Shown in pieces: positions 21,963-64,000 of a DNA stretch of 64,000 nucleotides. The notes below the pieces were generated by a model. That model made no database searches. It saw only the letters and a list, made by a program, of their open reading frames with translations, and was not told the DNA's origin. Source of the stretch: Candidatus Peribacteria bacterium (GTDB lineage Bacteria; Patescibacteriota; Gracilibacteria; UBA1369; UBA12463); assembly GCA_943354965.1 (NCBI GenBank), contig CALRDN010000003.1:1-64000 (forward strand), written 5' to 3'. The translations under genes and the position numbers were made by a program. The stretch's first letter is position 1, and each line of letters opens with the position of its first letter.

Positions 21963-21991
21963 GGGCGGTATGCGCGTGTCGTGTGCCGCCC
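21963..21991 (+). terminator. GC-rich hairpin between second pilin and giant gene
   Basis: GGGCGG (21963-21968) pairs with CCGCCC (21986-21991) with a 17-nt loop and is followed by a moderately T-rich stretch. It may attenuate read-through from the pilin into the giant-protein gene. Confidence 0.4.
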
Positions 21992-22027
21992 GAGTTGTTC
22001 TTTCAGAAGTTTCACTCCGTACTTTTC

Positions 22028-31000: not shown

Positions 31001-34000
31001 AAGTTGGGCAGTTTTAATTCTGATGAAAGTCAGATCCATCTCGTGGCTGAGCAGGCATCTGTTGATATTTCCAAGCTTCCTCTTGCGAATGGAGACAACA
31101 ATACCGTTAACGCCTCAAGTGTTCTGGGTCATCAATTACAACAATACTTAGCCGATAGAACGATCGAGATGCCCGATCTTTCGAGTGAAATCATCGCCTC
31201 TACTACCCCGCTCAGTAAATATATGGCACAGGCGAGTGCTGGTGATACTATTCCTGATTCTTCTGGATCGAGGATGGTTGCGTTGGCTACAGGAGCAGCT
31301 GAAGAGATAGGAACAGGAGCGAGTGTGGCACCTACTGCCGCTGGTGTGATGAGTGATTATGCCGATAGTGCCGCTCAGCCTGTTGGTATATTCCTTTCGA
31401 ATCCTGCGACGGGCAATGCGGAAAAACTTCTCTCCTATACTCTTGAGACCGGTCGCGATCCGGTCTTAAGTCAGATTGACGTTGATAATGATGGTGATAC
31501 CGATGTTTTCTATAGTTTCGGTGGGGATATTTATTTCAAAGAAAATCAGACAAAACATACTACCGATGCCTACAATGAAGTAGATACCTCGAGCCCGATG
31601 GTGTCTTCATTGGAAGATCTCTCACCGGCCGCAGGAGGAGTGAATGGAGTCTCTTTTGATGACTCACAACGTGATCTCATCACGCTTTCATGGAATGCCT
31701 CGGTTAACAGTATTGGATATGAACTTGATTTGTGGAGTGTAGAAAATGGCTTGCAGAGGCGCCAATACCTATTGCCAGTTGCCAGTGGTCAGATCCCCTA
31801 TAATGCAAGTATTGTGACTGAAGAAATTTCTGATGATAATTCCGTATCGATTTCACTGTCGTTACCATATGGGAATACCTACTTCCAGATCGTTCCGCTT
31901 GGGGCAAAGGGTGCGAAAGGTACGCCATCCTCTGTGCATTTGTTCGCGCCACAAATTTGCGGAGATTCTACGCCTCCTCTTTCCTCGCTTGAGGGTGGAA
32001 TAGGTGGAGAGAGTGCCGGCGGAGTTGCTGGTGGTGCCACGGGAGATGATATCCGTAGCGTCGCCCTAGGCAAAACACTATCTATCAATTTATCTGGCAT
32101 CGTCGATGTGAAGTCGCAGATTGTGAAATATTATGCCGATTCTGACCTCTCAAAGGACTCAAATGGTGATGGTAATCCGGAAAATGATAACGATGTGAGT
32201 TCTACGCTACCATCATTGACGTTTGGTCCTTATTTCAAAAATGGCGATGTGAATGTGAAGGTGTTTGCAGAAAATGCCCATGGCAATGTGAGTGAACAGG
32301 TACTTGGCATTCGTGTCTATGTTCCAAATATTTTTCTCAAACATGCCTCTGCGCAAGACGGCAGTGTCTATGGGTATATCAGTCCCGGCGAGGGTGATGT
32401 TCCTTTCTCTCTTGTTCGCGAAAGAGGAGGTAACGCCGAGATTGTTGGAGATTATCTAACTGACTCCGTAGGAAACTTCTCCGTGAGTGGATTGCAGACT
32501 TCCGGCAAGACCGTTATTCGCAATATAAAGAATGAAATTGTGGCCGAGTACGAAAGCGAGACTGGAAAGTTCCGCATTTTAATGACCGGATATTCGCTAC
32601 GTGCTCACGTTGCCGCTCCCGCTTATCTGGCGACCGTAGAAGTTGTTGATTCAAACGGAACGGTACTGGCTAGCTCATTTGCCGTGCCGGATGCCAATAC
32701 TGATGTTACCAATGATCCTGCCTCGCTCCCCTATACTCCAACCACCGTGGGGGTTATGAAAGGTGTTCATGTCGCCGACCGAAACGAAAGTGATTCCGTC
32801 CTGCTCAAGAGTATTCCTGCGGATGATCCGGCTTATTTCGGTGGAACAGAAATCGTACGTCGAGATACCAATGGCGATACGAGACTGGCCCTTATCGACT
32901 CTAGCGCGCATATACTCATTACTGACGAGCGTGTATCCATTCGACTGAGGGACGTAGCCGATATGCCTTATTCGTTTGAAGTCTTGTTGGACTCCAAGGT
33001 TATTGGAGAGATATTTATCGCTACAAAAATTCCTTCGAAACCTATTATTCTAGATCCGACCGAGTTCTCTATTCCTGCGAGTACATCCGTAGACGCACAG
33101 GTCGCTGCTATTCCTATCGAATCCCTGACTCCTTCGTCAAACTTTTCCGATATTGCCAAGGGGACCGAGCTCTACAGTGCTGTATCTGCACTGCAGGGCG
33201 ATGGTATTATTGAGGGATATCAAGAAAACGGACAACAGGTGTTTAAACCAGATCAGGCGATCTTGCGCGCGGAATACACCAAGATCGTGCTCAAGGCATT
33301 ATGTATTGTTCCGCGCGCCTCAGCCTACCAAGCCCCATCCCCCTTCTCTGATATTACCTTCACTCAGCCAGTATCCTGGTTCTATCCGTTCGTGAAGGAA
33401 TCATTCTTGCTTAATTTGATTACGGGATATACAGGGGAGAAAAACGCCTCAGGCGTTTCCCCATTCAAGCCACTTGCCTATATCTCACGCGCTGAGTCGG
33501 TAAAAATTCTCATAGAAGCACTACGTATGTTGAATGTCATCCGTCTCGACTCTGTAAGTATCGGCTCAAGCGAGGCCTGGTATGCGCCATTTATGAAGGT
33601 TGGCCAAAATCTTACACCCTATACTATTGCACCAACCGCCAGCTCTTCCGCAAAGACGAAGGAGTCTTTTATCATCACTCCTTCCGAGTCACAATCTCCA
33701 AATTATCGCATGACACGAGGTGATTTTGCCATCATGGCTGCTCGAGTTTTCAAAACGTACGACTGCTACAAAGATTCCCGTGACGCCAAATTAAAAAAGC
33801 TCCAGGAAGATATGGCCCTTCAGCAAAAGACAGTGCAGGACGCCGCACAAAAAGCACTAGACGCCAAGCGATCGGCGGCATTTACTCAACTCCAAAAAAC
33901 ACTTTCTCAGAAAACTTCCAAGCTCTCGCCAGGCATCTATGCATTCCTTCCTGTTTGCAACTCCTGCCCATGCGCCTCAGTCATAGATAATACCGGCCAG

Positions 34001-34102
34001 CTCTTACCAGGAGATCGAATTTTTGCAATACTATCTACAAAGGATCATGCAACTATTCTCAAAAAAAGTAATGTTATTATTCTTCCTATCTTACAGCCAT
34101 AA
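22028..34102 (+). CDS. Giant (4,024-aa) secreted multidomain surface protein with SLH anchor
   Basis: I take ATG 22028 as the start because a signal peptide follows at once (VAVVLAAFLAANVVQVPVVFA). A GTG at 21983 is less likely. Domains in order: an alpha/beta N-terminal part (about 45-198), a PDZ-like domain (about 512-603, with LNQGDILLDLDG) and Asp/Asn-rich calcium-loop motifs (about 737-768, DYNGNGKLD). Two bacterial Ig/invasin-like domains follow (about 1468-1668). An FG-GAP/VCBS-type repeat array is at about 2015-2181 (DVNNDGKKDLLVG, DIDGDGDEDIV, DMNADGVPDLL). Then come a Cys-rich segment (about 2332-2440), a Pro-rich linker (about 2828-2871), a lone FG-GAP motif (about 3143), an Fn3-like domain (about 3211-3311), three SLH-like domains (about 3705-3911) and a coiled coil. 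It opens a five-gene run of exported proteins. Its role is probably cell-surface adhesion or a large surface structure (inference). Confidence 0.85.
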   Translation: MPHFSLKHSIVAVVLAAFLAANVVQVPVVFAEAISTYGVDEKGSDFGLMGANVKDAHDLVAIVVSEDVWNDSQKYAGLSGSYDDVDKEKLQNRVKRYAEDVQAALPKTNTIIIPVSGAAESVLKVQQVLEKLYLGGQKVSGNATQLSGVVLVGNVPLPVVTKGSQSFISVLPYTDFVEPSYVFDAGLQKYTRSPSAPAAPKAEIWHGVIHAPVKGLQGMGMLAEYFDKNHLYHSGNKDFSEFGKKILYNDLVAESKNMNRASFPRYQQFLKEMEDIVYSRFSAKWLSALQKQFDGGTGEPITDIPDIQTVQPIQSYHLSYPELFGTLLGSITDFATGSGRWSEDDVESMPSLIAKKDAYMMQTIRETNDAIEAKIDTELEAVQKPLPLYRDTTIEGVVRYQNPGKIGLLKSIASTLSGKITSNDYLIGGGKFVFTNNSVIAGIQYVNGVASGDIVRAQQCSTYAGSSQIVRFIRSLNPLTINVSGATGAAGESDNAKNPGLLPTLGVTTRTLSSSEASKLSQGNILHGAIVEADKELGLPAKFAAVSLNQGDILLDLDGATIDEDHPVPSLLQTKSVGQKVQIGLYRDGKTLSANSVILDANSDSLVAGCYGINFTNEKNVIAGKEKRLCFPLASTYPIADHAGTTPIDSIVGLSDMDRGLSCTSFRGQKQFNTFMDEVRKYLGDSRSDGPSGLTVPNLPTQEPSKILLLEKKLVLGAPQDFSFQQFLDLQGIMNVQDDNGDYSDTNANGKVDQIAWIDYNGNGKLDLWVNPKLTGSSVNVVSLPGEDDLLSVLFSKLPLSLSVEEYRAKFPQFFQGSKYVGPYTGEFVGGDFGVDDPSEIGFGYKPLGTSEAERWGNIQKKYLEVVSPIVYATPRRAPTQQEYRAHLQAMQKNHPGLKLDVLNLLYGGSSCITSGTGCVDELLQIDGLRKSTSDIWMRFSSLKEKDISSVGYHKEPTAATLGAQFKGVLSSALPIDKPRHATFIDKSGSAKTFIYPNVFSVSTYSELVKKLGESEKSLTEYGDSKSNGLLTAMFSADEAKKIQSLLDWRGLSLDQKHARIMLEYLNPSVDGYIDDSPLGYEAMYFVANGKPTSYATDFSGEGLVTEDDPEYMAIMSGDSVKGQGSIVASAANGVSIDTSASGGVPVTAASESVSVSTKSAAASASSPADFSDPDVVDIDKWFPAIEKWLDNLKNSFKPLGLSLTHVGGYDSLVAPGAPLQTLKISLPKMNPLIGGDSVVVDVIGFDAKGSLATNDHTSLVRLDVAGLDSSPESAKVIPDESDMPDGGIYLSQGHASFQIVPGKKAQTIVVRARATVSGASIASDSVTLRISEATDADTVVASDALLGVPNSVTLNAENAILIAPTVLPALPQTVSVSLSDAAGHPVEGQLASYTITVSGPVSVSGISDSDSSREGYQVESMGQPIKISLTPTAQSGQVVITASSSKDDGSPMNRTLTLPIRSDLHLAVSSNVSQLKADDGTSVAVVTATVRDAGGVIIPTFSGPVHFSIDDTKLGIFSSQTPTHFSKGQAVVTLQSSTRSGNVHVIVDGSGLPPAKASVEILPLQAAGIQIVNGAKTLALAAGSNLVLNVVDQYGNLATENSLPLQIRITSKTEKYGNLRSANGTLSKTLIAYAQRGAGAVTVQASDVSGAIHIVASSPGLSGAAYEITTSGVSGNGVISSLNPSVLYASFLGGPFGKVSEQNYLAGTMLFSGKMEAAAALSTDAKPLHNLISIGAYGGVTVFDSAAAIRVLSSSEGDPLRMSLTTNVGKDTVGELIIKRDGKASDYVSMVATGTDAYSFAPTGSAGTNGVIRDSEKDLLRIFGSGGVQILDPKITVTLSATPSNKFISLDVSSDSSVIATIRIPFDAVNSLALLNAPPASYQQLPIGVWLVNQIHSGDYIFEPSYSGFSSEEPMGYKLVSTLSTDITASDTIGSSSTSLEDASFTNGIGFAGDNKHMLLLAAGNTVGESHKSYPSEIGIVLGDPTVRLPGANAPSAMGFSMDLGKSIGSVTQGAKVLLPLDVNNDGKKDLLVGNEDGSIRYFQYTGGSETFRDRGELLRVKHGIYDAGVADIDGDGDEDIVIATKESCTTKETCVDIYRNNKGSFTRENLGLAIEPDRRVAVMRLVDMNADGVPDLLVSLTNGEIRLFYNDGKGVFEHSGQLIGSFNVSPGQRVLLSAGTSVALAAGGASVASDITFASDSHDSFADIFAQPEGSANAMLVYFVANGSSSLKGGHVMYRKIEVPAGISTSDAMDKLKDDLSATLSPKGSTGAKSELTAAGQGMSLLMNENNKDANHDGIPDYIDGSSADDIINKASSVVSSVKSTIKKLRCGEGCLPLPVNFAFLAPGPINVNGKSVGDDPFAIPVFGAAGGCYPWPIWPPCPYTNKAQTFRIYVSPTLTGQVGFGICWGGSFKNAKCAAFAPNISFIPKGLCKAISQKMNTVLKNASSFGSGGGSGFTSMIAGGGKKFPSTDTSNTHTNKELLQGYGVEANVASNIRIPGFPAAFTDWIDRQIEEILDKLTDLPDLYLMYPDLGSAGRAVIPQMSSGKIAGYSTFLAWLNSVPLIQIEPKPVLLILPSLTKGQILKLEANLGLWLNDLTLEIFRVKSLFGCEKQTKDKRYIDICGLIDVKGNILFKKINDIFKTLDAYKAFPKKLLQYRNIESKYISQIINYLTTVSQFLGGYIRRQEKRLGAWVDMIKSVKKALGQWQYVVDITQKYAENCDSCKTERGSLFPVLLNAFVNIPPPPIIAFPKWPDIIMDFSRVQTGVKIVWPDLTFAPKQILLPILPSIKLPIDINLLAELGGLDKLSSVNISKITIDLSATFDSYIPVLPALPAVPSLPNLPDLPPLPAFKLPDIPPAPRIPGLDKIKGGSLSKSLASIKDLLEIVCLVKKGYVIVDEDSVKSNLKTMIEQLTQRSLTPPLSIDLEKTVSYPPIKYDAVEQIILRGKFKFELGTDVIYKTFKSFADSVNSETTDLVRGINSLGAKGKLGSFNSDESQIHLVAEQASVDISKLPLANGDNNTVNASSVLGHQLQQYLADRTIEMPDLSSEIIASTTPLSKYMAQASAGDTIPDSSGSRMVALATGAAEEIGTGASVAPTAAGVMSDYADSAAQPVGIFLSNPATGNAEKLLSYTLETGRDPVLSQIDVDNDGDTDVFYSFGGDIYFKENQTKHTTDAYNEVDTSSPMVSSLEDLSPAAGGVNGVSFDDSQRDLITLSWNASVNSIGYELDLWSVENGLQRRQYLLPVASGQIPYNASIVTEEISDDNSVSISLSLPYGNTYFQIVPLGAKGAKGTPSSVHLFAPQICGDSTPPLSSLEGGIGGESAGGVAGGATGDDIRSVALGKTLSINLSGIVDVKSQIVKYYADSDLSKDSNGDGNPENDNDVSSTLPSLTFGPYFKNGDVNVKVFAENAHGNVSEQVLGIRVYVPNIFLKHASAQDGSVYGYISPGEGDVPFSLVRERGGNAEIVGDYLTDSVGNFSVSGLQTSGKTVIRNIKNEIVAEYESETGKFRILMTGYSLRAHVAAPAYLATVEVVDSNGTVLASSFAVPDANTDVTNDPASLPYTPTTVGVMKGVHVADRNESDSVLLKSIPADDPAYFGGTEIVRRDTNGDTRLALIDSSAHILITDERVSIRLRDVADMPYSFEVLLDSKVIGEIFIATKIPSKPIILDPTEFSIPASTSVDAQVAAIPIESLTPSSNFSDIAKGTELYSAVSALQGDGIIEGYQENGQQVFKPDQAILRAEYTKIVLKALCIVPRASAYQAPSPFSDITFTQPVSWFYPFVKESFLLNLITGYTGEKNASGVSPFKPLAYISRAESVKILIEALRMLNVIRLDSVSIGSSEAWYAPFMKVGQNLTPYTIAPTASSSAKTKESFIITPSESQSPNYRMTRGDFAIMAARVFKTYDCYKDSRDAKLKKLQEDMALQQKTVQDAAQKALDAKRSAAFTQLQKTLSQKTSKLSPGIYAFLPVCNSCPCASVIDNTGQLLPGDRIFAILSTKDHATILKKSNVIILPILQP

Positions 34103-44953: not shown

Positions 44954-44981
44954 TTGCATTGTGATGGAAAGCAGCTAGAAT
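44954..44981 (+). promoter_or_regulatory. Promoter of thrS
   Basis: TTGCAT (44954-44959) and TAGAAT (44976-44981) with a 16-bp spacer, 31 bp before the thrS ATG. It overlaps the region used by the divergent recF promoter. Confidence 0.55.
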
Positions 44982-45012
44982 GTGTGGGCTCCTATGTTTT
45001 AATACTATTTTC

Positions 45013-46827
45013 ATGCCTCCACGATCATCAAAACCAGCAGAAACAGACCCAATTTATGGCATGAGACACTCATGCGCGCATATGCTCGCCCAGGCGGTAT
45101 TGCAGATTTTTCCTGATGCAAAATTGGGAGTTGGACCGGTGATTGAAAATGGCTTTTATTATGACTTTCAGCTTCCAAGGACGTTAACTCCGGAGGATAT
45201 GAAAGATCTCCAGAAGAAGATGGAGCATATTGGAAAGCAGGGGCAGACGTTTGTACGACAAGAAAAAACGATCGTGGAGGCGAAAGAATTTTTGAAAAAT
45301 GGAGGAATGGGAGTGAAAACGGGAACGGGATCCGACACCTCCGGTGTCCAGCCATTCAAAATTGAGCTCGTAGAGGATCTCGCGGCAAAAGGAGAGACGG
45401 GCGTAAGCTTTTATGAAAATGTGGATCAGAAAGGTGAGGTACGATTTGTAGATTTATGCCGTGGAAATCACACGGAAACGACCGGAAAAGTCGGAGCGTT
45501 TCAACTCACAAGTATTGCCAGCGCGTACTGGAAGGGAGACAGCGAAAATCCATCGATGCAGCGTATTTATGGTGTCTGCTTCGAGACAGAGGCGGAGTTG
45601 AAAGAATACCTCGCACGAATTGAAGAGGCGAAGAAACGTGATCATAAAATTCTTGGAAAACAGTTAGGATTATTTGCATTTAGTCCGCTTGTTGGTGCGG
45701 GTTTGCCGTTGTTTCTTCCAAAGGGCGCTCGTTTGAAAAAACTATTAGAAGATTTCATTACGAAGGAAAAAGAAAAACGTGGATACTCATTTGTTTGCAT
45801 TCCACACATCGCGAAAGATGCGTTGTATGTCACGAGCGGACATTTGGGAAAGTATGATGCCATGATGCCGATTATGGAGACGGAAGAAGGCGGAGATGCT
45901 CTCGTGATGAAGGCGATGAACTGTCCGCATCACTTTGAATTATTCAAAGCAGAAGCACACTCATACCGTGAATTACCGCTTCGTTATGCGGAGAATACGA
46001 CGGTATATCGAAATGAAAAAAGCGGTGAGGTAAACGGATTATTCCGAGTACGCGCTGTCACGCAGGATGATACGCACCACTTCGTGCGACATGATCAGAT
46101 CGGTTCTGAAATTGATATGATCTTGGGTTTGACTCGCGTGGTCTATGAAAAATTTGATTTCAAAAACTTCCGTGCTCGTGTCAGTATCCGCGATCCGAAA
46201 AAGCCGGAGAAATATTTTGGTGATGATGCGTTATGGCAGCTTGCCGAGAAAAATCTCGTAGAGGGCGTACAACGATGGGGTGCAGAATACTTCATCGGTG
46301 AGGGAGAAGCGGCTTTCTACGGACCTAAAATCGATATCATGGTAGAGGATGCGTTGGGACGAGAATGGCAGCTCACTACCGTTCAGCTCGACTTCACTCA
46401 GCCGGAAAATTTTGATCTGGAGTATACCGGGGAAGACGGGAAGCGACAGCGGCCGGCCGTATTGCATGTTGCGATTTTCGGCTCGCTCGAGCGATTTATG
46501 GGAATTATTATTGAGCATTTCGCCGGAGCATTTCCCGCATGGCTCGCGCCGATTCAGGTACGCATTCTGCCGGTGAGTGATCAGTTTCTACCCTATGCCA
46601 CCGAGGTTTTTGAGAAATTGCGAGCGGAGGGGTGCCGAGTGGAAATCGATACTGCGGCGGAGACGTTGGGTAAAAAAATCCGAAATGCCGAGCATACTCG
46701 AGTGCCATACATGGTCGTTATTGGCGAAAAAGAAACAGCCGATAAAACCGTTGCCGTGCGCGATTATGCTACGAAAAAACAGGAGACGATGGAGCTGAAT
46801 GCGTTACTTGTACTGCTGCGAGCGTAA
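45013..46827 (+). CDS. thrS: Threonyl-tRNA synthetase, lacking the TGS domain
   Basis: From ATG 45013 the protein has 604 aa (a GTG at 44980 is unlikely). It begins directly at the editing domain (RHSCAHMLAQAVLQIFPDAKLGVGP, then GFYYDF and a CRGNH motif). The class-II catalytic domain follows, with MNCPHHFELFKAEAHSYRELP (motif 2 and zinc Cys), LFRVRAVTQDDTHHF and the motif-3 stretch GSLERFMGIIIEHFAGAFP. A C-terminal anticodon-binding domain ends the protein. The ubiquitin-like TGS domain of about 60 residues at the usual N-terminus is absent, while the editing domain is kept. The context before the ATG (TATTTTC-ATG) has no Shine-Dalgarno motif. Confidence 0.96.
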   Translation: MPPRSSKPAETDPIYGMRHSCAHMLAQAVLQIFPDAKLGVGPVIENGFYYDFQLPRTLTPEDMKDLQKKMEHIGKQGQTFVRQEKTIVEAKEFLKNGGMGVKTGTGSDTSGVQPFKIELVEDLAAKGETGVSFYENVDQKGEVRFVDLCRGNHTETTGKVGAFQLTSIASAYWKGDSENPSMQRIYGVCFETEAELKEYLARIEEAKKRDHKILGKQLGLFAFSPLVGAGLPLFLPKGARLKKLLEDFITKEKEKRGYSFVCIPHIAKDALYVTSGHLGKYDAMMPIMETEEGGDALVMKAMNCPHHFELFKAEAHSYRELPLRYAENTTVYRNEKSGEVNGLFRVRAVTQDDTHHFVRHDQIGSEIDMILGLTRVVYEKFDFKNFRARVSIRDPKKPEKYFGDDALWQLAEKNLVEGVQRWGAEYFIGEGEAAFYGPKIDIMVEDALGREWQLTTVQLDFTQPENFDLEYTGEDGKRQRPAVLHVAIFGSLERFMGIIIEHFAGAFPAWLAPIQVRILPVSDQFLPYATEVFEKLRAEGCRVEIDTAAETLGKKIRNAEHTRVPYMVVIGEKETADKTVAVRDYATKKQETMELNALLVLLRA

Positions 46828-47091: not shown

Positions 47092-49560
47092 TCAATGTGG
47101 CTTATACTTCGGAATCTCGCTATTGAACTCTCGCATTGCGGGGAAAATTAATCCCGGGAAAAGTACATCGCGGAAGAGTCCGAGTGATCGATCGGCGTCA
47201 TACACATCATGCGACATGACGGTTTCTTGGCTTAACCATCCGATGCAGAGGTTTTCGATGGTATAGAGTTGTACCTCCACTGTTTCGGTGATCATCTTGC
47301 CGTCCTTGGCTCGAATGTGATGTCTGGATCCTCGCTGTCCGGCGCGATGATGCGCTGATAGAATCGCCGTTACCGATGGCCTTTCTTTCTTCTTGAGACG
47401 CCCGCTACTCGGATCCTCCACCTTTACGGTTGTTCCACCGATTTCATTAAATACAAAATCCTTTGCTCTGCGCATCTGCTTGCGAATATTTCCGTTTACC
47501 GCCACGCATGTACGTGTTCCATCTGTTATTTCTCTTTCGCCCTGTCGTAACTGCGATATAAGTCTTGATTGCAATGACTTAGAGTTCCATAGTATTCCAT
47601 TTTCTTCAAAACTAGGACTAAAGAAATAGAGCGTTAACGGCTCGTCCTGATGATGAAGCGTCACTTCGTAGAGCGTTACTTCTTCTATCTTTTTTTCTTC
47701 ATAGAATCTACCATCAATCTCTTTTAATGGCTTTCCCTCGCCACTATCATGCTCTCCTTCCTGAACTTGCTCGTACCTGTATTCCGGAACTCTTGCTTTC
47801 ATAAAGTCGCTCAAAACCGGTGCGCCCGATTCATCCACTTCCTGTAGAATTCTCCACCTGAATTTCACAGGTTTTATTTCCTCCGGAACAATTCCAAATC
47901 TCTCACGAAATCTCTCGTCAAATGCCTTTGTCGTTTCTATAAACCTTGACGTATCCCCACCTGGCAACATATCGTGTGATTTGTACCAAAACTCAAGCAT
48001 AGTCCGTGCCTCATACCCTACGATTCGCTCAATCATTCCATGTAAATCCTCCTCGCTTGAAGCATATTCCCTGAGCTGATAGGTATCCGTAATCCACTGA
48101 CCAGCTTCATCATTATCCTCCAGGAATAGCGAAGGATTATCGCACCATACCATGAGATTTTTGATGTTTCTCTCATTTTCAATTGCGGGAATAAATACCG
48201 CCATCTGCTTCTCTGGTACCGAATCCGGGACAAAATGAAGTGCCTCTCTTTTAATTTTATCTATGGTTTTTTTACCCTCATTAATTTCTCTTTCTATCAT
48301 CGCCCTCGCTTCACTTACCGTCATATTTTCTAATTCTAACCTCCATAAAAGTCTACTTTCTCCCATTTTTGCTTCTTCAACTAACATGTGGATCGGTTCC
48401 CTCATTTCAGCTTTCGGAACGATAATACGGGCCATGGTATTCATACTTACCACCGTCGTCTCAGCTATATCCATTCTGAACTTTGGGACTCTTTGGTCGC
48501 GAATATCCTTGATAAAATGGCGAGCAAACCAAGAGTGAAAACTATTTCCATTTGTAACACCATATCCCGCTTCTCCCGTAGCCTCTTGCACCTCTACTCG
48601 TTTCTTCCTTCGCACTTTCTGACGCGCTTCGCGCGCCTTGAAAATCGACTGCGTGAATAAAAGCCTATCGAGATTTTCCAATCTGAATCCGATTTTTTCG
48701 AGATATTCAATTAATTGTTTGCGTGGTCCTTCCAATGTTAAAATCTTTTCTCCCTGTTCGCCTAACACTCGAGCAAAAAGAAAATCTAATATTGTTCGGT
48801 TTTTCTTGAACGCTTCTTCGAATTTAGAAGTACTAATATCTACAGTCTCCTTCACAATTCTCTCCGTGAGATCCGTCATAATATCTTGATCACCCTTCAT
48901 GATATCAATCACATTCATGTCCGAATATTTCTCTTGTAGCCTCTCTATGACTTCAAACACCTTCCTCTCTTCCTTTTCTGTTCCGTATACTAAAATAAAT
49001 TCACTGAATTCATGCTTAAGTGCGTCAATTTGACTTTGAATTACTCCTGCGCGAAAAGGAAGTTCTGTCGTTGCTCCGGTCTGCATTCTGTTGTCTCTTC
49101 TTTCTTGCAACCCTTGAAAAAAACTTTCAAGAAGATCTCTTACGAGTTTACTCGAATTTGTAGTATCATCCGGATCACTTCTCCCAAGAAGTTCCAAAAA
49201 CTCGCCAGGAAGTAAATGATGATCACGAATCACTTCATCCACTAGATCGTTCATAATTCCTTTTAGAGAGGCTCGCACATCTCCGGCTCGGCGTTTTACG
49301 TTCGTCGTAAGCCCTTGGTGAATTTTATCCTTTTTCACGTCATCGAGCATCAAAGCATCATAAGGTCTCATTTCCCGATCCTTTACTTTCACATGAGCTT
49401 TTGGCTCCTCTGTCTCCTGCTCCATTTCCGCCTCGGGAACAACACTATTCAATAAATTTCCCGCTGAATCATATGTGCCCGTCGTGCTAGCCCAATCGTC
49501 GGCATGGGCATTTCCATCGTCATTGGTCATCGGTCTTGGAATATCGGGACTACTGGACAT
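47092..49560 (-). CDS. Large cytoplasmic protein of unknown function (822 aa)
   Basis: This protein has no signal peptide or membrane helix. It starts with an acidic, disordered region (about 1-70), continues with long charged helices (about 75-480, including ERKVFEVIERLQEKYSDMN and a KVRRKKRVEVQEA basic patch), and ends with a mixed alpha/beta part. Near the C-terminus, RGSRHHIRAKDG followed by TVEVQLYT faintly recalls the RelA/SpoT synthetase pattern, but key residues are not convincing and I do not assign it. It has a very good promoter (TTGCCA, 18 bp, TGG-TATAAT) with the -10 six nt before the ATG. It is divergent from the ATP synthase operon. Confidence 0.7.
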   Translation of the reverse strand: MSSSPDIPRPMTNDDGNAHADDWASTTGTYDSAGNLLNSVVPEAEMEQETEEPKAHVKVKDREMRPYDALMLDDVKKDKIHQGLTTNVKRRAGDVRASLKGIMNDLVDEVIRDHHLLPGEFLELLGRSDPDDTTNSSKLVRDLLESFFQGLQERRDNRMQTGATTELPFRAGVIQSQIDALKHEFSEFILVYGTEKEERKVFEVIERLQEKYSDMNVIDIMKGDQDIMTDLTERIVKETVDISTSKFEEAFKKNRTILDFLFARVLGEQGEKILTLEGPRKQLIEYLEKIGFRLENLDRLLFTQSIFKAREARQKVRRKKRVEVQEATGEAGYGVTNGNSFHSWFARHFIKDIRDQRVPKFRMDIAETTVVSMNTMARIIVPKAEMREPIHMLVEEAKMGESRLLWRLELENMTVSEARAMIEREINEGKKTIDKIKREALHFVPDSVPEKQMAVFIPAIENERNIKNLMVWCDNPSLFLEDNDEAGQWITDTYQLREYASSEEDLHGMIERIVGYEARTMLEFWYKSHDMLPGGDTSRFIETTKAFDERFRERFGIVPEEIKPVKFRWRILQEVDESGAPVLSDFMKARVPEYRYEQVQEGEHDSGEGKPLKEIDGRFYEEKKIEEVTLYEVTLHHQDEPLTLYFFSPSFEENGILWNSKSLQSRLISQLRQGEREITDGTRTCVAVNGNIRKQMRRAKDFVFNEIGGTTVKVEDPSSGRLKKKERPSVTAILSAHHRAGQRGSRHHIRAKDGKMITETVEVQLYTIENLCIGWLSQETVMSHDVYDADRSLGLFRDVLFPGLIFPAMREFNSEIPKYKPH

Positions 49561-56477: not shown

Positions 56478-59400
56478 CTATTCTCCTCCTGCTCCTGCTT
56501 CTGCCTGTGCAGCCGCTTTTGCTTTTGCTCTGGCTACCAGGGCTGGGTCTGGGTTTCCGCTGTATCCTTTTAGATTACAATCGTTTACGATCTTAAATAG
56601 CGCCTCCTCTCCAATATAATTTATCGCACTATTAAGCTCCGGACCGAACTCCTCGATGAAATTTTCAATCTGTTTCTGTCTCCCTCCGCCCACATCCGCG
56701 GATGCTTTGTCTACTTTTTCGAATAATATCTTCCACTCATCCCCTTTCTCTGCCTTCGCTCCAATCTTCAAAATCATATTCCTCATCTGATCTATATGAA
56801 ATTTTGATGGAGTCAACGGATCTACTACCGATCCATCATTGTCCAAAACGTTATCCGAAATTACCTGCTTTTTTGTATCACTTTTCAGAAAACGTCCTGT
56901 AATAATTCCATCAAAATTCACGTACGAGAGAATGGCCTTTTCGAGGAGATTTCTGTTTTTGGTTGCAGCAAGGGTCCGTGACCATTCGCTGAATCCCGGG
57001 AACACGTTGAGATATCCCGGTGGTGAGAAGTACTTCTTGTCACCTGCCGATGATCCACACATATTTCTCACCTGCCGATAATCAAGACACGGCATGAAAA
57101 AGTGAGCATCATCATGATCTATACCCTCGGCTGCTCGCGATGCCTTCAGGGTTCTCGTCTGTGTTGTATGATGGGGCATAATTTTTTTCCAGAAGAACTC
57201 ATGTACATTCTTTCCCGGACTATATTTCTTCTTACTTGGGTCTGAATCCTTATCAAAAAAGTTCGCCATTACCTGGAAATCGCTCACCGTAAATGTTCGA
57301 TTATAATGCGGCGGAACCTGACTCTGCATCGTCGTTAACGTCAAAGGCTTATCCTCATCCTTTGCCTGCGTGAAAAAGTCTAGCCATGGTTGCTTGTTAC
57401 ACAGGCCATTAATATCAGCAACACGATCCAGTGTAAGGAGATTTGTGGCCACTCCCATGACGATATAGTAGAGCCTGTTTTCAGCGCTCGATTTTCCTTC
57501 TTCGATCGCATAACGAATAAACTCCTCATATTTCTGCGGATCTACCTGATTTCCCTTCATATGCTCGCTCAATAACGTCCTCATTCCACCGGTTAGGCCG
57601 TTCGGATCATTTTCAAGCGCTGCGGCGTCGCTCTTATACTTATCCAAACCGGACTTGTAGGCGCCCTTATTTTTTGCTTTCCATGAGTCGTACAAATTAT
57701 CGTCTCCCCATATATTTTCAAATGCATCCTTCAGATAATCCATACCTTTTTTTGGAATACCAGAAGGACTCATCCCCACAATTGCATAGGCGTTACCATC
57801 ATTTGGAATAGGAATTTTCTTATCATTTGATAGCGCCGGTATGCGATTAATCGCCTTCCATGTGCGCACATCATCCCATCGCATCATACCTTTCTCCGTG
57901 AGAACTTGAATACAGGCCTTGATCTGATCCTGATTAGAGCTCCCATTCAAAAGTCCACGAATTTCAAAGTCACCCATATGCGCCATGGCGTGTTCAAACT
58001 TTCCGACTTCCTCGTGCTCGGTATCTTCCTTGATACGTAACATTTCCGTACCGATGAATGGTAGGTGTGAACCAAATTTCGAAAATCTATTCTTCATTCT
58101 ACGTTCCCACGTACGCGTCCAATATTCCCAGATGTGCTTGCCGAGCTGACCAACATCCTGCGCACTAAGAAACTGTGTCTCGTTCCATATATGGGCGATT
58201 GTTCCCTCATGCGGTATAGTGACATTTGCCTTTTGCCTCGCTGCTTCCTCATCCATCCATGTTTTTTGCTGGGCCTCCTCTGGAGTTAATGCTGGTCCTG
58301 CATGGGCGCCGTGGTCTTCCTTTGCATGGGCATCATGGAGTGCATGATTCTGCTCTTCAAGCTCTTGCATGTCGGCAATCTCATCCAACTCATCCTCAAG
58401 TTTTTTTGTATATTTTTCTCGCGCCTCAATACGCTTGCCCTCTGGAATCATGGCCGTAGCAGCTGTAGCCACTACAAGTGGATCATTTGATCGCCAGTTA
58501 GCGTTCATCGCGTGCCGGAGGAGTTCTGCCGGTCTATATGATGCCCTACTAATGCGCGTCATCTCGACGTCATCATCCTTGGTCACTTCTTTTACGGTGA
58601 GGAAATTTTTCTGCTCCAACGGGCCATATGCCAACTGCCCCCCTTTTTGAAAACTTACCGGAGCGGCGCCGGGATTGCCATGAACGGCCTTCCAATTATT
58701 GTAGGCATTTTCTGCTTCTACGCCACTCTTCAGATGAGGTACCACCTGGAATCGCTTGATCCATTGGGAAAACTCTCCATAAGTGAGCTTCTTTTTTGCA
58801 ATAGGTCGCGTAAGTATTTGTCCGGCAACCGTTCCACTTCCCGGATATACGACGTTCACTTCTCTATCGAGCTCTACAAAACCATCTGCGTGTATTTTTG
58901 CAATTTTTGCAAAGTTTATCTCATTCTTCTCATTCTTTTTTATCTCATATTCCAGCTCCATTCCTTCTCGGAGAGGGAGCTTCATCGCGTCGAACTGGAT
59001 CTCACGATCGAGCTCTTCTTTGTTATCAATAACTTGGTGTGCCTGCGTATCTGTTACCCATTTCTTGAAACGGCCGAATGTTTCACGCCCTGCGCCTGTT
59101 ACAACAACCAATGGTAGATTGTCTATTTCTATTTTCTCTCCGTTCCAATCAAGTGTTTCATCTGTTGGTTTGTCGAGATATACTCCCTGGACCTCTGTAG
59201 TGACCCATTTGTGCTCGATGATATTATCATCGCGCAGCACCTCCATCTTGTATTGAATTTTCGTGCCAGGTTTGAGATTGATTCCAGATTGCTTACTGCA
59301 GTTCGCGATATCTTGTTTCAGACGAACACGCTTCATCGTCTCTTCCATGCGCGGGGCGAGTTCCTTGATCGTGATGGCGTCATAATTTTTGGCAATTTTT

Positions 59401-60482
59401 GCCTGAATGTCCTGCAGGAAACAAAGTCGTTCTTCAATGTGCTTCAGCGTATCGCTTGGAATTAATTTTGAAAGATCCACTCCGGTCTTATCCCTTGCCT
59501 CGGCCATTCCTCGCTTCATGTCGTCTTTATCAATTCTTTTTTCTGATTTACGGATAGCATCGCCGAAACATTCGCTCAACATGATGTCGATCGCTTTTTC
59601 TATTTTTGGATCACCTTTTGCGATGGAATCTTTTGTTCTCCTTGTTAATTCACCCCATGAATCAAGATGTGATTTGCTGGCATCGCCAAACTCCTTAATC
59701 ATAGCGCGAACTTTCTCGGCATCTTCCGGAGAATCAATCTTTGCACTCAAATAATCCTGCGCCTCTACGCCTACAAACTCGGTTAGGCTCTTACGAAAAC
59801 GATCTTCTTCGCTGTCAAAAGCGCTTATTCCTGATACGTCCTGAAGTGCTTTCTTCTCACTCAGAGGATTCTCTTTCATGAAATTCTTGAAGTCTTTTGC
59901 GGACTTCGGATCGCGAATAAATGCCTTGGCTGCATTTTTGTGCTTATCGCTATTGCTGTCGAGGGCGCTGAGCGCGAGATCGAAATCTGATGGAGAAATT
60001 CTTCCGGTAAGTTCATGCTCGGCGAGATCTCTGCGAAATAACGGCTCATTGCCATCTCCCTTCGGTTCATGAGAGCACTCGTAGAGTTTATTAAATCTAT
60101 ATGCCGTAATTGAACCTTGTGTAAGGCGCAATGCAAGCGTGCGATCCATAAACATACTACTACTTGCCAATCTTTTTGCTTTTTCATAATTTCCCGTACT
60201 CAACTTCCCGTCGCTCATCATCTTGTTGAGATTTTTCATGAGATCATCGGCGCTCGTCGAGTTGAGCGAACCCATAATTTTGTTCCCCATACTATCCGTC
60301 ATCGCATCGAGCGGAGTAGCCGGCTTCTTCTTTTCCTCCTCCTCACTTGAACTTCCGCTACCGGATCCCTTTCCCGAAGACGAACTTGCTGCCGGTACAA
60401 AAAAGGCCCTCCTACCCGTGAACAATATGTTCTCGGCGCTGGAGCACTTCAGGAGCTGGTTTTGGATATACCAGTTATTCAT
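56478..60482 (-). CDS. Very large protein of unknown function (1,334 aa)
   Basis: After about 25 residues comes a Ser/Gly/Glu low-complexity stretch (SSSSGKGSGSG, SSSEEEEKKK). A long, largely helical, charged body follows with no membrane helix or signal peptide. A short beta-rich, repeated-looking part at about 375-600 contains GTKIQYKMEV and EGMELEYEIKKN. A His-rich stretch (HDAHAKEDHGAHAG) is near 730-745, and the end is Ala/Lys-rich. No family is recognised. It has its own promoter and lies downstream of a polytopic membrane protein of the same strand, so it may be a cytoplasmic partner of that system. Confidence 0.7.
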   Translation of the reverse strand: MNNWYIQNQLLKCSSAENILFTGRRAFFVPAASSSSGKGSGSGSSSEEEEKKKPATPLDAMTDSMGNKIMGSLNSTSADDLMKNLNKMMSDGKLSTGNYEKAKRLASSSMFMDRTLALRLTQGSITAYRFNKLYECSHEPKGDGNEPLFRRDLAEHELTGRISPSDFDLALSALDSNSDKHKNAAKAFIRDPKSAKDFKNFMKENPLSEKKALQDVSGISAFDSEEDRFRKSLTEFVGVEAQDYLSAKIDSPEDAEKVRAMIKEFGDASKSHLDSWGELTRRTKDSIAKGDPKIEKAIDIMLSECFGDAIRKSEKRIDKDDMKRGMAEARDKTGVDLSKLIPSDTLKHIEERLCFLQDIQAKIAKNYDAITIKELAPRMEETMKRVRLKQDIANCSKQSGINLKPGTKIQYKMEVLRDDNIIEHKWVTTEVQGVYLDKPTDETLDWNGEKIEIDNLPLVVVTGAGRETFGRFKKWVTDTQAHQVIDNKEELDREIQFDAMKLPLREGMELEYEIKKNEKNEINFAKIAKIHADGFVELDREVNVVYPGSGTVAGQILTRPIAKKKLTYGEFSQWIKRFQVVPHLKSGVEAENAYNNWKAVHGNPGAAPVSFQKGGQLAYGPLEQKNFLTVKEVTKDDDVEMTRISRASYRPAELLRHAMNANWRSNDPLVVATAATAMIPEGKRIEAREKYTKKLEDELDEIADMQELEEQNHALHDAHAKEDHGAHAGPALTPEEAQQKTWMDEEAARQKANVTIPHEGTIAHIWNETQFLSAQDVGQLGKHIWEYWTRTWERRMKNRFSKFGSHLPFIGTEMLRIKEDTEHEEVGKFEHAMAHMGDFEIRGLLNGSSNQDQIKACIQVLTEKGMMRWDDVRTWKAINRIPALSNDKKIPIPNDGNAYAIVGMSPSGIPKKGMDYLKDAFENIWGDDNLYDSWKAKNKGAYKSGLDKYKSDAAALENDPNGLTGGMRTLLSEHMKGNQVDPQKYEEFIRYAIEEGKSSAENRLYYIVMGVATNLLTLDRVADINGLCNKQPWLDFFTQAKDEDKPLTLTTMQSQVPPHYNRTFTVSDFQVMANFFDKDSDPSKKKYSPGKNVHEFFWKKIMPHHTTQTRTLKASRAAEGIDHDDAHFFMPCLDYRQVRNMCGSSAGDKKYFSPPGYLNVFPGFSEWSRTLAATKNRNLLEKAILSYVNFDGIITGRFLKSDTKKQVISDNVLDNDGSVVDPLTPSKFHIDQMRNMILKIGAKAEKGDEWKILFEKVDKASADVGGGRQKQIENFIEEFGPELNSAINYIGEEALFKIVNDCNLKGYSGNPDPALVARAKAKAAAQAEAGAGGE

Positions 60483-60531
60483 AAGCGTAGGGGGTTATTC
60501 ATCCTGCTACCTCTGTCCTGTCTTTGATTGT

Positions 60532-60559
60532 ATTTTACTATATTTTTCATGTATTGCAA
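60532..60559 (-). promoter_or_regulatory. Promoter of the 1,334-aa protein gene
   Basis: On the reverse strand TTGCAA (60559-60554) and TAAAAT (60537-60532) with a 16-bp spacer, about 50 nt before the ATG at 60482. Confidence 0.5.
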
Positions 60560-60606
60560 GTTTTTTGTGTTGAGGTGAGGCTGGGGGAGCTTAGGGGTTT
60601 ATAGGA

Positions 60607-63141
60607 TTATGGAGCGGCATTAATGGCTGCAACTAGGGCTGCTGCGTCAGCTGCTGACATTTTCGGAGGTGGGCCTGTAAGAGCTGCAATCGTTGCGGCA
60701 GTCATCGCTGCTGTCCTGCTTGCCTTACTAACGCTTTCCTCTGAATAAAGTTTTGCAATCTCAATTCCTCTATCGGCTGGATTTGCCATACCGCTACCGA
60801 CAAGAGCGGCATTATGCTTCTGAATGGCCGCCGCTGTCGCAGCCGGAGTAGGAGGAGTTGTAGAATTCATGGCTTTAATTACCTGAACAACAACTGCGTC
60901 CGCTTTCATAGTTGTATTTATTTGCTGTGCTGGCGTTTGAGGTGTGGCAGGTGCTGGAGCTGCTGGCGGAGGCATAAATCTTTGAATTTTTGGGAGTGTA
61001 AGCTTACCGGCCACTGCCTCCTTATGAAGCTCATGAAATTCTGGTTTGTAATTCGGGTTACCTGGGTTTAAATAGTCTGGGCGATCATGACCAATCTTTT
61101 TAACCGCATCAATAAGCTCCTTTTGGTTGGCAAGGTAGTAACTCGCATCATTTTTCCTTTCCCCCAAAAGACTCTTCAAAGCATCTGGAGAGGTGGCCTC
61201 GCTAAGTGGTTGCGCTCCATGTCCGATTCCCAGAAGATCTCGCGCATTCTGCATTCTCTTGTTATCTTTTTCCTGCAATATTTCATGCATAAGTCCTGGA
61301 ATGAGATCCACTCCAATTTTTCCCATCTTTTGGAGATCGTGATGGCCGGCGTGTGGGGTGACAACCTGGAAGAGAGGAGTGTACTTGAATGGAGCCTTGG
61401 CGAGCCATGTGCCGGCAGTCTGAGCTCCTTCGAGAATAGGACCGGTGATTTTGTCGCTGATCGTATCGCTTGTGGCGGTTTTGATGCCGTACCAGAGGAA
61501 TACAACACTTCCGATTGCCACGAGGAGATCCTGGAAGGTATCGATACTCGAGGTCGGAGCTCCGCTCGTCAGTGTGCCCTGGCCGTTGTAATTAATATTC
61601 TGCATCGTCGCCAATAAAATAAATCCAATAGAAAGGACGAATCCGATAAGCATCGGTGCGATGAGTGTTTTCACAATCTTGCTTGAATTTCCTCCCACCC
61701 CTGGAATAGGAAATGTCGCATTGAGGACAATTACCGGTGAGAAAATAATAATCATCCACAATACGGCCGCGCGCGTGAAGAGTACTACAACGAGCACGAC
61801 GAAACTGACGGCGTAGATCAAGAACATGACCAACGAGAAAAGCATGTTGATCGTGAGCGCCGCTATACCGCCTTTTGCCGCTGCAGCCGAAACCTTTGGC
61901 AAGTCTTGAATATTCATAAACTTGATCGCAATAATCATCAATGAACTATCCACATTCCAACTCTTGAGATAGCGCTGTACTTTGTCATTAATCACCAGTT
62001 TTCCGTTTTTGTCCGGAACACACATGGCCGAACTAGAGGAAGAACCTTTGGAGGAATAATATTTATTCGTATTTTCTTTACACGTAGCTTCAGTTTTCTT
62101 GTCACTCTCGCATAGTTTTAATGCATTATTCTTCGCATCTGTTGCGAGATTTACCGCTAAATCTCCGCCGCCTCCGATGGTGTCACAAATCGGCCCCTGC
62201 GCTTTTTGAATTTCCAGCAAGGTCGCCTGGGTGAGACGGGCATCGGTTTGACCAATAGAAAAGGCGAATGTCGTACCTACATTTATTACATCCAAGACTA
62301 CTTTTACGCCGGCGTAGGAGAAGTTTACCAATACTAATCCAATAATAATCTTTGGAAGTGCTTTTTTGAGTTCGAGCATGGAAACGGTTTCGCCAAGTCC
62401 TACTACATTATAAAGTGCGACGGCGAGTAAGAGTAATACATAGGCGATATTTACGAGATTTCTCACCTGAATCCACATCTCACTCAATTTCAAATCAATG
62501 GCTCCTGTATAGAGGAAGTCGCTCTTCATCAAGCCTCCGGCAAACATCAGTAACGGCCAGAGAAGCTGCGATATCATGCTCAAAATAATCGAAAGAACCT
62601 TCGAGAGCATCACAATGATATCATTATTCGGAAGCACCGATCCGACCGACTGACCACCTATGGTTGATCCGGGGGCGGTAGCTGGACTGGCTGCCGCTAC
62701 GACTGTATTAAATTTGGTTGTCGCGGCCGTTACTGTTGCATCATATTCCGCTATCGCGGCATTACTCGCTGCCTTGAATTTTGCCTCTGCGGCAGTTTTT
62801 GCTGCCTCATCCGTTGCGGCCGCAATTTCTGCATCACGGACTTTCTCCGCTGCGAGTATCAATGGATCTCTTTTTTCCGCCGCCGCATTTTTTGTCGCCG
62901 TAAGTTCTTTACCTGCTTCATCTACGGCAGCCTTCTGCTTATCCTTTGCAGCCTTCGCTTCAGCGGCATCCTTTTCCGCCTTTATCTCTTCTGCTGTTTT
63001 TGGCTTTTCTTCTGCTGGTGCCGCTGCGGCCTGTGCATAGGTTATGTTGGCGGAAAATACGTTCGTGAAACTGGCGAGAGTTACCACGATGAGGAGGCTG
63101 AGGGCTATGTTTCGGAGGATGTGAGTATGTATGTTTTTCAT
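60607..63141 (-). CDS. Polytopic membrane protein with signal peptide; VirB6/TrbL-like outline
   Basis: This 844-aa protein has a signal peptide (about 10-37, ending ITYAQA) and an Ala/Lys/Glu-rich coiled-coil region (40-150). At least six membrane helices follow between about 175 and 560 (for example LSKVLSIILSMISQLLWPLL, IAYVLLLLAVALYNVVG, IIIGLVLVNFSYAGVKVVLD and MLIGFVLSIGFILLATM). A soluble Ala/Pro-rich C-terminal part of about 250 residues ends the protein. The arrangement of a long multi-helix core with soluble ends recalls VirB6/TrbL channel components of type IV secretion, but no signature residues prove it. Neighbouring genes are equally unknown. A loop between helices carries several Cys (CDTIGG, LCESDKK, TCKEN, MCVPD). 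Confidence 0.6.
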   Translation of the reverse strand: MKNIHTHILRNIALSLLIVVTLASFTNVFSANITYAQAAAAPAEEKPKTAEEIKAEKDAAEAKAAKDKQKAAVDEAGKELTATKNAAAEKRDPLILAAEKVRDAEIAAATDEAAKTAAEAKFKAASNAAIAEYDATVTAATTKFNTVVAAASPATAPGSTIGGQSVGSVLPNNDIIVMLSKVLSIILSMISQLLWPLLMFAGGLMKSDFLYTGAIDLKLSEMWIQVRNLVNIAYVLLLLAVALYNVVGLGETVSMLELKKALPKIIIGLVLVNFSYAGVKVVLDVINVGTTFAFSIGQTDARLTQATLLEIQKAQGPICDTIGGGGDLAVNLATDAKNNALKLCESDKKTEATCKENTNKYYSSKGSSSSSAMCVPDKNGKLVINDKVQRYLKSWNVDSSLMIIAIKFMNIQDLPKVSAAAAKGGIAALTINMLFSLVMFLIYAVSFVVLVVVLFTRAAVLWMIIIFSPVIVLNATFPIPGVGGNSSKIVKTLIAPMLIGFVLSIGFILLATMQNINYNGQGTLTSGAPTSSIDTFQDLLVAIGSVVFLWYGIKTATSDTISDKITGPILEGAQTAGTWLAKAPFKYTPLFQVVTPHAGHHDLQKMGKIGVDLIPGLMHEILQEKDNKRMQNARDLLGIGHGAQPLSEATSPDALKSLLGERKNDASYYLANQKELIDAVKKIGHDRPDYLNPGNPNYKPEFHELHKEAVAGKLTLPKIQRFMPPPAAPAPATPQTPAQQINTTMKADAVVVQVIKAMNSTTPPTPAATAAAIQKHNAALVGSGMANPADRGIEIAKLYSEESVSKASRTAAMTAATIAALTGPPPKMSAADAAALVAAINAAP

Positions 63142-63163
63142 TGGTTTTTGTGTTTTTTGTCGG

Positions 63164-63541
63164 TTATGCGTTTCCGAAGAAGAGAGGAAACATAGTGGCG
63201 CCCCCTACTATGGTGGCCGATGATGCTCCTCCTATGATGAGCGCATTGCGAACAAAATTTGATTCTTTTCGTGGTACGGCCGGTAGATTAAATGTTCTTT
63301 TCTTCTTTGCTTTTTCCCTCTCAGCAAATTGTTCCTGTTCATCTTGCTGGGCTTGAGCCTTCTCCATCCCTTCTCCCTCTGCTTTTTTCACGGCATTGTC
63401 ACTGGCCGTTTGCTCTTCCCGATTTTTCATTACGCTTGCTTGCGCCACCTGCACTTGACCGATAGATTGTATGGCACCTAGCATCATCGTCCGTGCGGCG
63501 AGATTTTCCTTATTAGCCTGAATGTTCATTGGTGTTGCCAT
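63164..63541 (-). CDS. Small tail-anchored protein, unknown function
   Basis: From the ATG at 63541 the protein has 125 aa (four codons upstream another ATG at 63553 is possible). It is a charged helical, Gln/Glu/Lys-rich protein (AEGEGMEKAQAQQDEQEQFA) with a single C-terminal membrane helix (about 100-122, ALIIGGASSATIVGGATMF). It is 22 bp upstream of the polytopic protein gene and likely co-transcribed. Confidence 0.6.
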   Translation of the reverse strand: MATPMNIQANKENLAARTMMLGAIQSIGQVQVAQASVMKNREEQTASDNAVKKAEGEGMEKAQAQQDEQEQFAEREKAKKKRTFNLPAVPRKESNFVRNALIIGGASSATIVGGATMFPLFFGNA

Positions 63542-63574
63542 ATAGGTGAGCATTTTCTCAGAAAATACAAATAA

Positions 63575-64000
63575 TTATTTTATACCGTGGAGACGTTTCA
63601 TTTCCGCTACATGCTGTTTCAATATGTCGGTATTCTGCATTGTTCTAGAGGCCAATATAACGTTCGCATACTGTATAAATTCGCTGCCCTCTTCTCCAAC
63701 CCCGCTCTTTGATTTTGCCTCTTGCAGTAGCGCGATTAGCTCGGGACTTACTCCTCTTATCACTTCGTGATTTTTTGTTTTACTGTCTTTGCCTTCGGCG
63801 AACGTTAACATTTCTTCAATTTTTACATTCATTGGCTGCTTCTTATCCGTCTTCTCTCTTCGAATAAGTGTCAATAACTCAACCATTCCTGTCTCTTTCT
63901 TTCCTCCTGGAATATCTTTCTGCGCTCTCGTGAAATATTTATCGGTAATGCGTGGCTTGTTGATAATCATCTCGCACATAGCCATCGCTATCGCTTGATC
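63575..64000 (-). CDS. Unrecognised protein, 5' end beyond the window
   Basis: The reading frame is open to the window edge. An ATG at 63985 is possible, but five further codons without a stop precede it, so the true start is probably outside. The visible part (about 141 residues) is soluble and helical, with Lys/Glu-rich stretches and no motif I recognise. It is 33 bp upstream of the tail-anchored protein gene and belongs to the same reverse-strand cluster. Confidence 0.55.
   Translation of the reverse strand, partial: DQAIAMAMCEMIINKPRITDKYFTRAQKDIPGGKKETGMVELLTLIRREKTDKKQPMNVKIEEMLTFAEGKDSKTKNHEVIRGVSPELIALLQEAKSKSGVGEEGSEFIQYANVILASRTMQNTDILKQHVAEMKRLHGIK

Follow-up and report, generated by a model that had tools for sequence, protein, structure and literature searches.

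A gene cluster in the genome of a Candidatus Peribacteria bacterium encodes an 844-amino acid (aa) polytopic membrane protein that is probably a divergent, extended VirB6. It would belong to a single, dispersed type IV secretion system (T4SS) of the Patescibacteria type (monoderm, MPF_FATA-related), working with VirB4, PrgI/VirB3, TrsD and pilins encoded on other contigs. The window, i.e. the whole stretch of DNA analysed, is 64,000 nucleotides long and corresponds to positions 1–64000 of a 125,679-base contig (C3) in a 1.16 Mb genome of 100% estimated completeness. VirB6 forms the pentameric base from which pilins and the channel are assembled, beside VirB3 and the VirB4 ATPase. The original prediction, made from the nucleotide letters, had called the outline of the 844-aa protein VirB6/TrbL-like and a type IV secretion-related apparatus conceivable, and this is supported by PrgI, TrsD and VirB4 neighbours in distant Patescibacteria and by a chain of profile–profile comparisons leading to plasmid VirB6/PrgH proteins.

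In GTDB, Peribacterales is an order within the class Gracilibacteria of the Patescibacteria, and the NCBI taxonomy lists Peribacteria under Peregrinibacteriota; ‘order’ and ‘class’ in the counts given here are the kinship labels of the genome collection used. The Patescibacteria sample consists of 240 genomes across the phylum (21 from the class and 219 others), and the order sample of 59. Where relatives of the 844-aa protein are named, they belong to metagenome-assembled genomes labelled ‘Candidatus Peribacteria bacterium’.

A homology chain to VirB6

The conserved VirB6-like core of the protein spans residues 172–618 (61288–62628, minus strand), and a profile built from 23 aligned sequences of this core (alignment A5) finds homologues in 189 of the 240 Patescibacteria genomes, with one match in the genome under study. 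Fourteen loci from distant classes, chosen by core-profile score and contig position, were read for gene context. Seven of them have PrgI, TrsD and VirB4 lined up with the homologue, and an eighth has an adjoining TrsD; the probability of such co-location by chance is around 7e-9 if the loci are treated as independent, which they are not fully. The PrgI and TrsD of the bacterium’s own genome, used as queries, recognise the matching genes at these distant-class loci, and Pfam matches to PrgI, the TraG P-loop of VirB4 and T4SS_pilin were obtained at those that were scanned.

The second line of evidence is the comparison of profiles with hhalign, in which the window family aligned with nine VirB4-linked homologues at 99.6% (E 1.9e-24), compared to 1.0–1.5% when either side was reversed. 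A merged profile of the Patescibacteria proteins matched pooled TrwI (R388 type) and PrgH (pCF10 type) sequences at 96.2% (E 2.3e-9), with 1.7% for the reversed profile and at most 2.5% across the reversed controls.

Architecture of the VirB6-like protein

The 844-aa protein (60607–63141, minus strand) is laid out as a signal-like N-terminus, a coiled coil, about seven transmembrane (TM) segments and a hydrophilic C-terminal tail, where TM segments and topology, here as for the other proteins, are read from hydropathy only. Of the signal peptide and coiled coil described in the original prediction, the signal-like N-terminus stands, and the coiled coil (approximately residues 40–150) is lineage-specific and absent from relatives. 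Most of the members read have about seven TM peaks and a loop of about 130–170 aa, which would lie on the extracytoplasmic side of the membrane. The core alignment contains 15 invariant columns, including W, R, NF, R...W, SP and P motifs and two cysteines in this large loop, Cys319 (62185–62187, minus strand) and Cys374 (62020–62022, minus strand), the latter in a gappy part of the loop alignment. The two cysteines are candidates for a disulfide within the loop.

Considering its relationship to known systems, the protein is closest to the VirB6 of Patescibacteria T4SSs linked to VirB4, PrgI and TrsD (PMC12102498), with which it shares the homologous core, motifs, polytopic character, signal-like N-terminus and a genome holding the same partner set, but unlike these it is detached from VirB4 and lies in a cluster with BIG, a PH-like protein and two further proteins, described below. 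Additional hydrophilic domains characterise the extended VirB6 proteins, of which ones of 700–900 aa have been described for the MPF_FA class (PMC12857230). By description, these resemble the 844-aa protein in size, in having at least five hydrophobic helices and in their added hydrophilic unstructured domains, while the large cysteine-bearing loop sets the window protein apart. PrgH and TrwI share with all Patescibacteria sequences merged a profile similarity at the R...LW...SP region and the helices that follow, but at 266–342 aa they are far shorter. With the PF04610 (TrbL/VirB6) family the likeness is one of polytopic outline only, and this model found no match in the bacterium’s own genome at an E-value of 10. 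Searches of the core profile against PDB sequences returned no match, and a scan of viral contigs revealed no relative.

A conserved gene cluster

Four consecutive minus-strand genes had been proposed for this region, and all four open reading frames (ORFs) were confirmed, the fourth being cut by the window edge; a fifth member lies beyond that edge. From upstream, the minus-strand order is PH-like (186 aa), helical (546 aa), tail-anchored (129 aa), polytopic (844 aa) and BIG, a giant soluble protein of 1,334 aa (56478–60482, minus strand), whose gene is convergent with the ATP synthase operon. Homologues of the polytopic protein are present in 56 of the 59 order genomes. Gene order in the order relatives was read in 20 loci of up to 20 kb each, where the recurring arrangement is PH, a helical protein of about 500 aa, a variable slot that is empty in a few, the polytopic protein and BIG; one locus lacks a recognisable PH and another lacks BIG beside the polytopic gene. 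Because the polytopic protein is so widely retained in the order and its gene order recurs, the conservation of this cluster is far beyond chance.

The PH-like protein, with two TM segments, is encoded at contig positions 65235–65795 on the minus strand, beyond the right edge of the window (alignment A3), and the helical protein at contig positions 63575–65215, also on the minus strand, with its last 141 codons (63575–64000) in the window (alignment A2). The latter had been described as soluble and helical; its helical nature holds, and its solubility is uncertain because of one or two weak hydrophobic segments in the hydropathy profile. This protein shares about 11–27% identity with other members, and as a single sequence from this genome it matched no credible Pfam family. 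The tail-anchored protein (63164–63553, minus strand) is recognised by its conserved position and the hydropathy of its C-terminal segment, which peaks at residue 104 of 129, in agreement with the predicted tail anchor; no sequence family is shown for it. In relatives, this slot is filled by proteins of 164–622 aa, many of which carry a hydrophobic stretch at the C-terminus.

Just upstream of the cluster, at contig positions 66376–67599 (L002:10379–11599), lies a gene for a LysM and M23 peptidase protein, and in 7 of the 20 relatives an M23/LysM peptidase homologue is found inside the 20 kb read. M23/LysM peptidases are of the kind of enzyme able to replace VirB1, and this protein is a candidate VirB1-like cell-wall enzyme.

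A probable dispersed secretion machine

The other parts of a T4SS are present in the same genome. VirB4 is encoded on contig C6 (695 aa, TraG P-loop at 1.6e-23) and is found in 53 of the 59 order genomes, mostly at 64–94% identity. The VirB4 matches in several of these genomes, among them G020, G038, G045, G024, G029 and G055, contain one or two in-frame stops, which perhaps affect the C-terminus only. PrgI is encoded on contig C8 (1.1e-15) with a TrsD-like gene directly adjoining, forming a stand-alone PrgI–TrsD pair (L163:8446–9679) detached from VirB4. VirB2-like pilins are represented by ten matches over the PF18895 cut-off, with arrays on contigs C20 and C4 (L164, L165) that in places have several domains per reading frame, and there are three TrwB/TraG/HerA-like, i.e. 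VirD4-like, ATPases of 848–911 aa. The window itself contains, downstream of two pilin-like genes, a 4,039-aa ORF with a signal-like N-terminus (21983–34102).

A VirB4- or VirD4-type ATPase beyond the right edge of the window was not seen up to contig position 116000, and genome-wide searches place these ATPases on other contigs. The VirB6-like gene and VirB4 are likewise on different contigs, and in a one-contig relative (G054) they are more than 400 kb apart. As VirB4 does not lie beside the VirB6-like cluster, the T4SS is dispersed, which agrees with a 2025 survey reporting that the Gracilibacteria have VirB3 and TrsD separate from VirB4 (PMC12102498). The same survey reported VirB6 as absent in Gracilibacteria and suspected extreme divergence (PMC12102498); the divergence of the window protein would account for that reported absence.

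BIG and the PH-like protein

BIG was predicted to be a very large soluble protein, and its hydropathy, with neither a signal peptide nor a TM segment, bears this out. Its most conserved module (residues 752–1025; 57408–58229, minus strand; alignment A8) served as the marker for its distribution and was detected in 18 of the 21 class genomes and in none of the 219 others. The protein is single-copy, its module shows 20–42% identity to the window copy and its N-terminal half is variable. Elsewhere in the class, a genome of another family has BIG next after the VirB6-like gene (L133); in a further family BIG and VirB6 are separate, and in two genomes PH directly precedes BIG, near thrS and dnaA-like genes (L199, L202). 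The BIG family has no credible match in Pfam and its profile none among PDB sequences, and a poor AlphaFold model of the C-terminal half (three sequences; predicted local distance difference test (pLDDT) 53) gave no Foldseek match in the PDB at an E-value of 0.001 or better.

The N-terminus of BIG, at approximately residues 15–30, has a basic residue, two or three hydrophobic residues and F/Y, followed by a Gly/Ser/Pro-rich linker. This pattern is also seen in at least two unrelated-looking soluble proteins, one in the bacterium’s own genome (contig C2, L168:16176–17939) and one in a sister family (L204:889–2229), and judged by its sequence it is a possible sorting tag.

The PH-like label is a sequence reading of the short domain that follows the two TM segments; Pfam gave no credible family for these proteins, with weak scattered matches, one of them to DUF5673. 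PH is far more widespread than BIG, occurring in 184 of the 240 Patescibacteria genomes. Outside the class, among the 69 genomes with both genes in the matches listed, 20 have PH no more than 20 kb from the VirB6-like gene, where 3.6 would be expected, an excess whose significance is overstated because the genomes are related. PH is thus tied to the T4SS neighbourhood, and BIG to PH and VirB6. To our knowledge, no counterpart of BIG, PH, the helical or the tail-anchored protein exists in described T4SSs. A tentative proposal, somewhat less likely than not, is that the four constitute an undescribed inner-face module of the T4SS, in which BIG would be an invention of the class and PH an overlooked general accessory of Patescibacteria T4SSs.

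Weighing the alternatives

Several results weigh against the identification of the 844-aa protein as VirB6 and of its neighbours as T4SS parts. Pfam and NCBIfam VirB6/TrbL models match none of the family members scanned, as is also the case for the VirB4-linked relatives scanned, a match to these curated models being the customary criterion for detection and not a defining one. The window family alone scored 37.8% with PrgH and 0.3% with TrwI; since this direct comparison is weak, the family is connected to plasmid VirB6 transitively. One profile scored 61% against its own reversal, therefore middling scores of membrane profiles mean little, and weight is given only to high scores whose controls are clean. 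The AlphaFold model of the core, from an alignment of three sequences, has a mean pLDDT of 41, a poor result because the alignment was too shallow. No T4SS ATPase stands beside the cluster in the order relatives compared, PH and BIG are not adjacent to VirB6 in a sister family, and the partner roles are read from gene neighbourhood only.

Four other explanations were weighed. Concerning BIG, it might be a protein exported by the machine, such as an effector or a surface protein with the host cell as its target, instead of a machine part; its very large size, position beside a secretion component, lack of a Sec signal and variable N-terminal half would suit such a role. However, a single-copy protein found in nearly all class genomes sampled, with a module retained at the identities given above, resembles a structural component rather than an effector caught up in an arms race; BIG is also paired with the membrane protein PH in a sister family, hence export is a rather unlikely explanation. 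It is unlikely, too, that the polytopic protein, though of VirB6 descent, now serves in a separate membrane complex alongside BIG and the other cluster proteins, without VirB4. This would fit with the separation of the cluster from VirB4 in the order relatives compared, and with the want of known T4SS counterparts for BIG, the helical and the tail-anchored protein, but the protein is the sole VirB6-like copy in a genome that retains VirB4, PrgI, TrsD and pilins, and T4SS genes are dispersed in the class according to the published survey too (PMC12102498).

A DNA-uptake (competence) apparatus, the other function suggested in the original prediction, is very improbable. Saccharibacteria do import DNA, via type IV pili and ComEC (PMC12857230), but no positive evidence for uptake was found here, the cluster contains no competence gene and the homologues elsewhere accompany VirB4 and PrgI; in a Saccharibacterium, moreover, comEC is dispensable for growth on the host, which does require the T4SS together with its pilin array (PMC12857230). 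Most remote of all is a chance resemblance, in which the profile detects mere hydrophobic segments, as the failure of curated models and the spurious score of a reversed membrane profile might suggest, given the one match in the whole genome, the clean reversed controls (1–1.5% versus 99.6%) against the VirB4-linked set and the independent support from gene context.

Neighbouring genes

Two further genes were considered as members of the cluster and rejected. Some relatives carry a gene for a 468–901-aa protein between BIG and thrS, from which came the idea of a sixth member, represented in the window by an 822-aa minus-strand gene (47092–49560). By profile this gene is unrelated; its product has no Pfam match and, in the 21 genomes searched, matches only within the genus, and it sits between thrS and the ATP synthase operon. 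A neighbour of about 590 aa in relatives is the counterpart of window positions 44980–46827, which reads as threonyl-tRNA synthetase (thrS). In most order relatives thrS adjoins BIG or is one gene away (L039–L055), and the region appears rearranged in the window, where the ATP synthase operon and the 822-aa gene separate the two.

Proposed role and significance

The analysis shows a conserved cluster, a homology chain, the presence of the remaining components in the genome and the distributions; from these we infer that the parts assemble into one machine, with the topology and partner roles proposed here. The 844-aa VirB6-like protein would be the membrane-embedded base of a translocation channel or a pilus platform, working with the VirB4 ATPase, PrgI/VirB3, TrsD and VirB2-like pilins encoded on other contigs. 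PH, the helical and the tail-anchored protein may be accessory parts at the membrane or its cytoplasmic face, and BIG a cytoplasmic platform, peculiar to the class, by which substrates are recruited or fed. By analogy with the Saccharibacteria, the machine would be used for contacting or exploiting a host cell and not for conjugation.

Few machines have been shown to be indispensable to a Patescibacterium living as an epibiont; the T4SS is one of them, and its parts are not yet fully catalogued. For the VirB6 that the 2025 survey found missing from Gracilibacteria, this analysis supplies a candidate, its motifs and its location, and it puts forward two testable partners, one a giant protein occurring across the class and the other a PH-like membrane protein occurring across the phylum. 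If the reading is correct, a T4SS without a visible VirB6 would become complete, and ‘hypothetical’ genes of many genomes would be given a system to which they belong.

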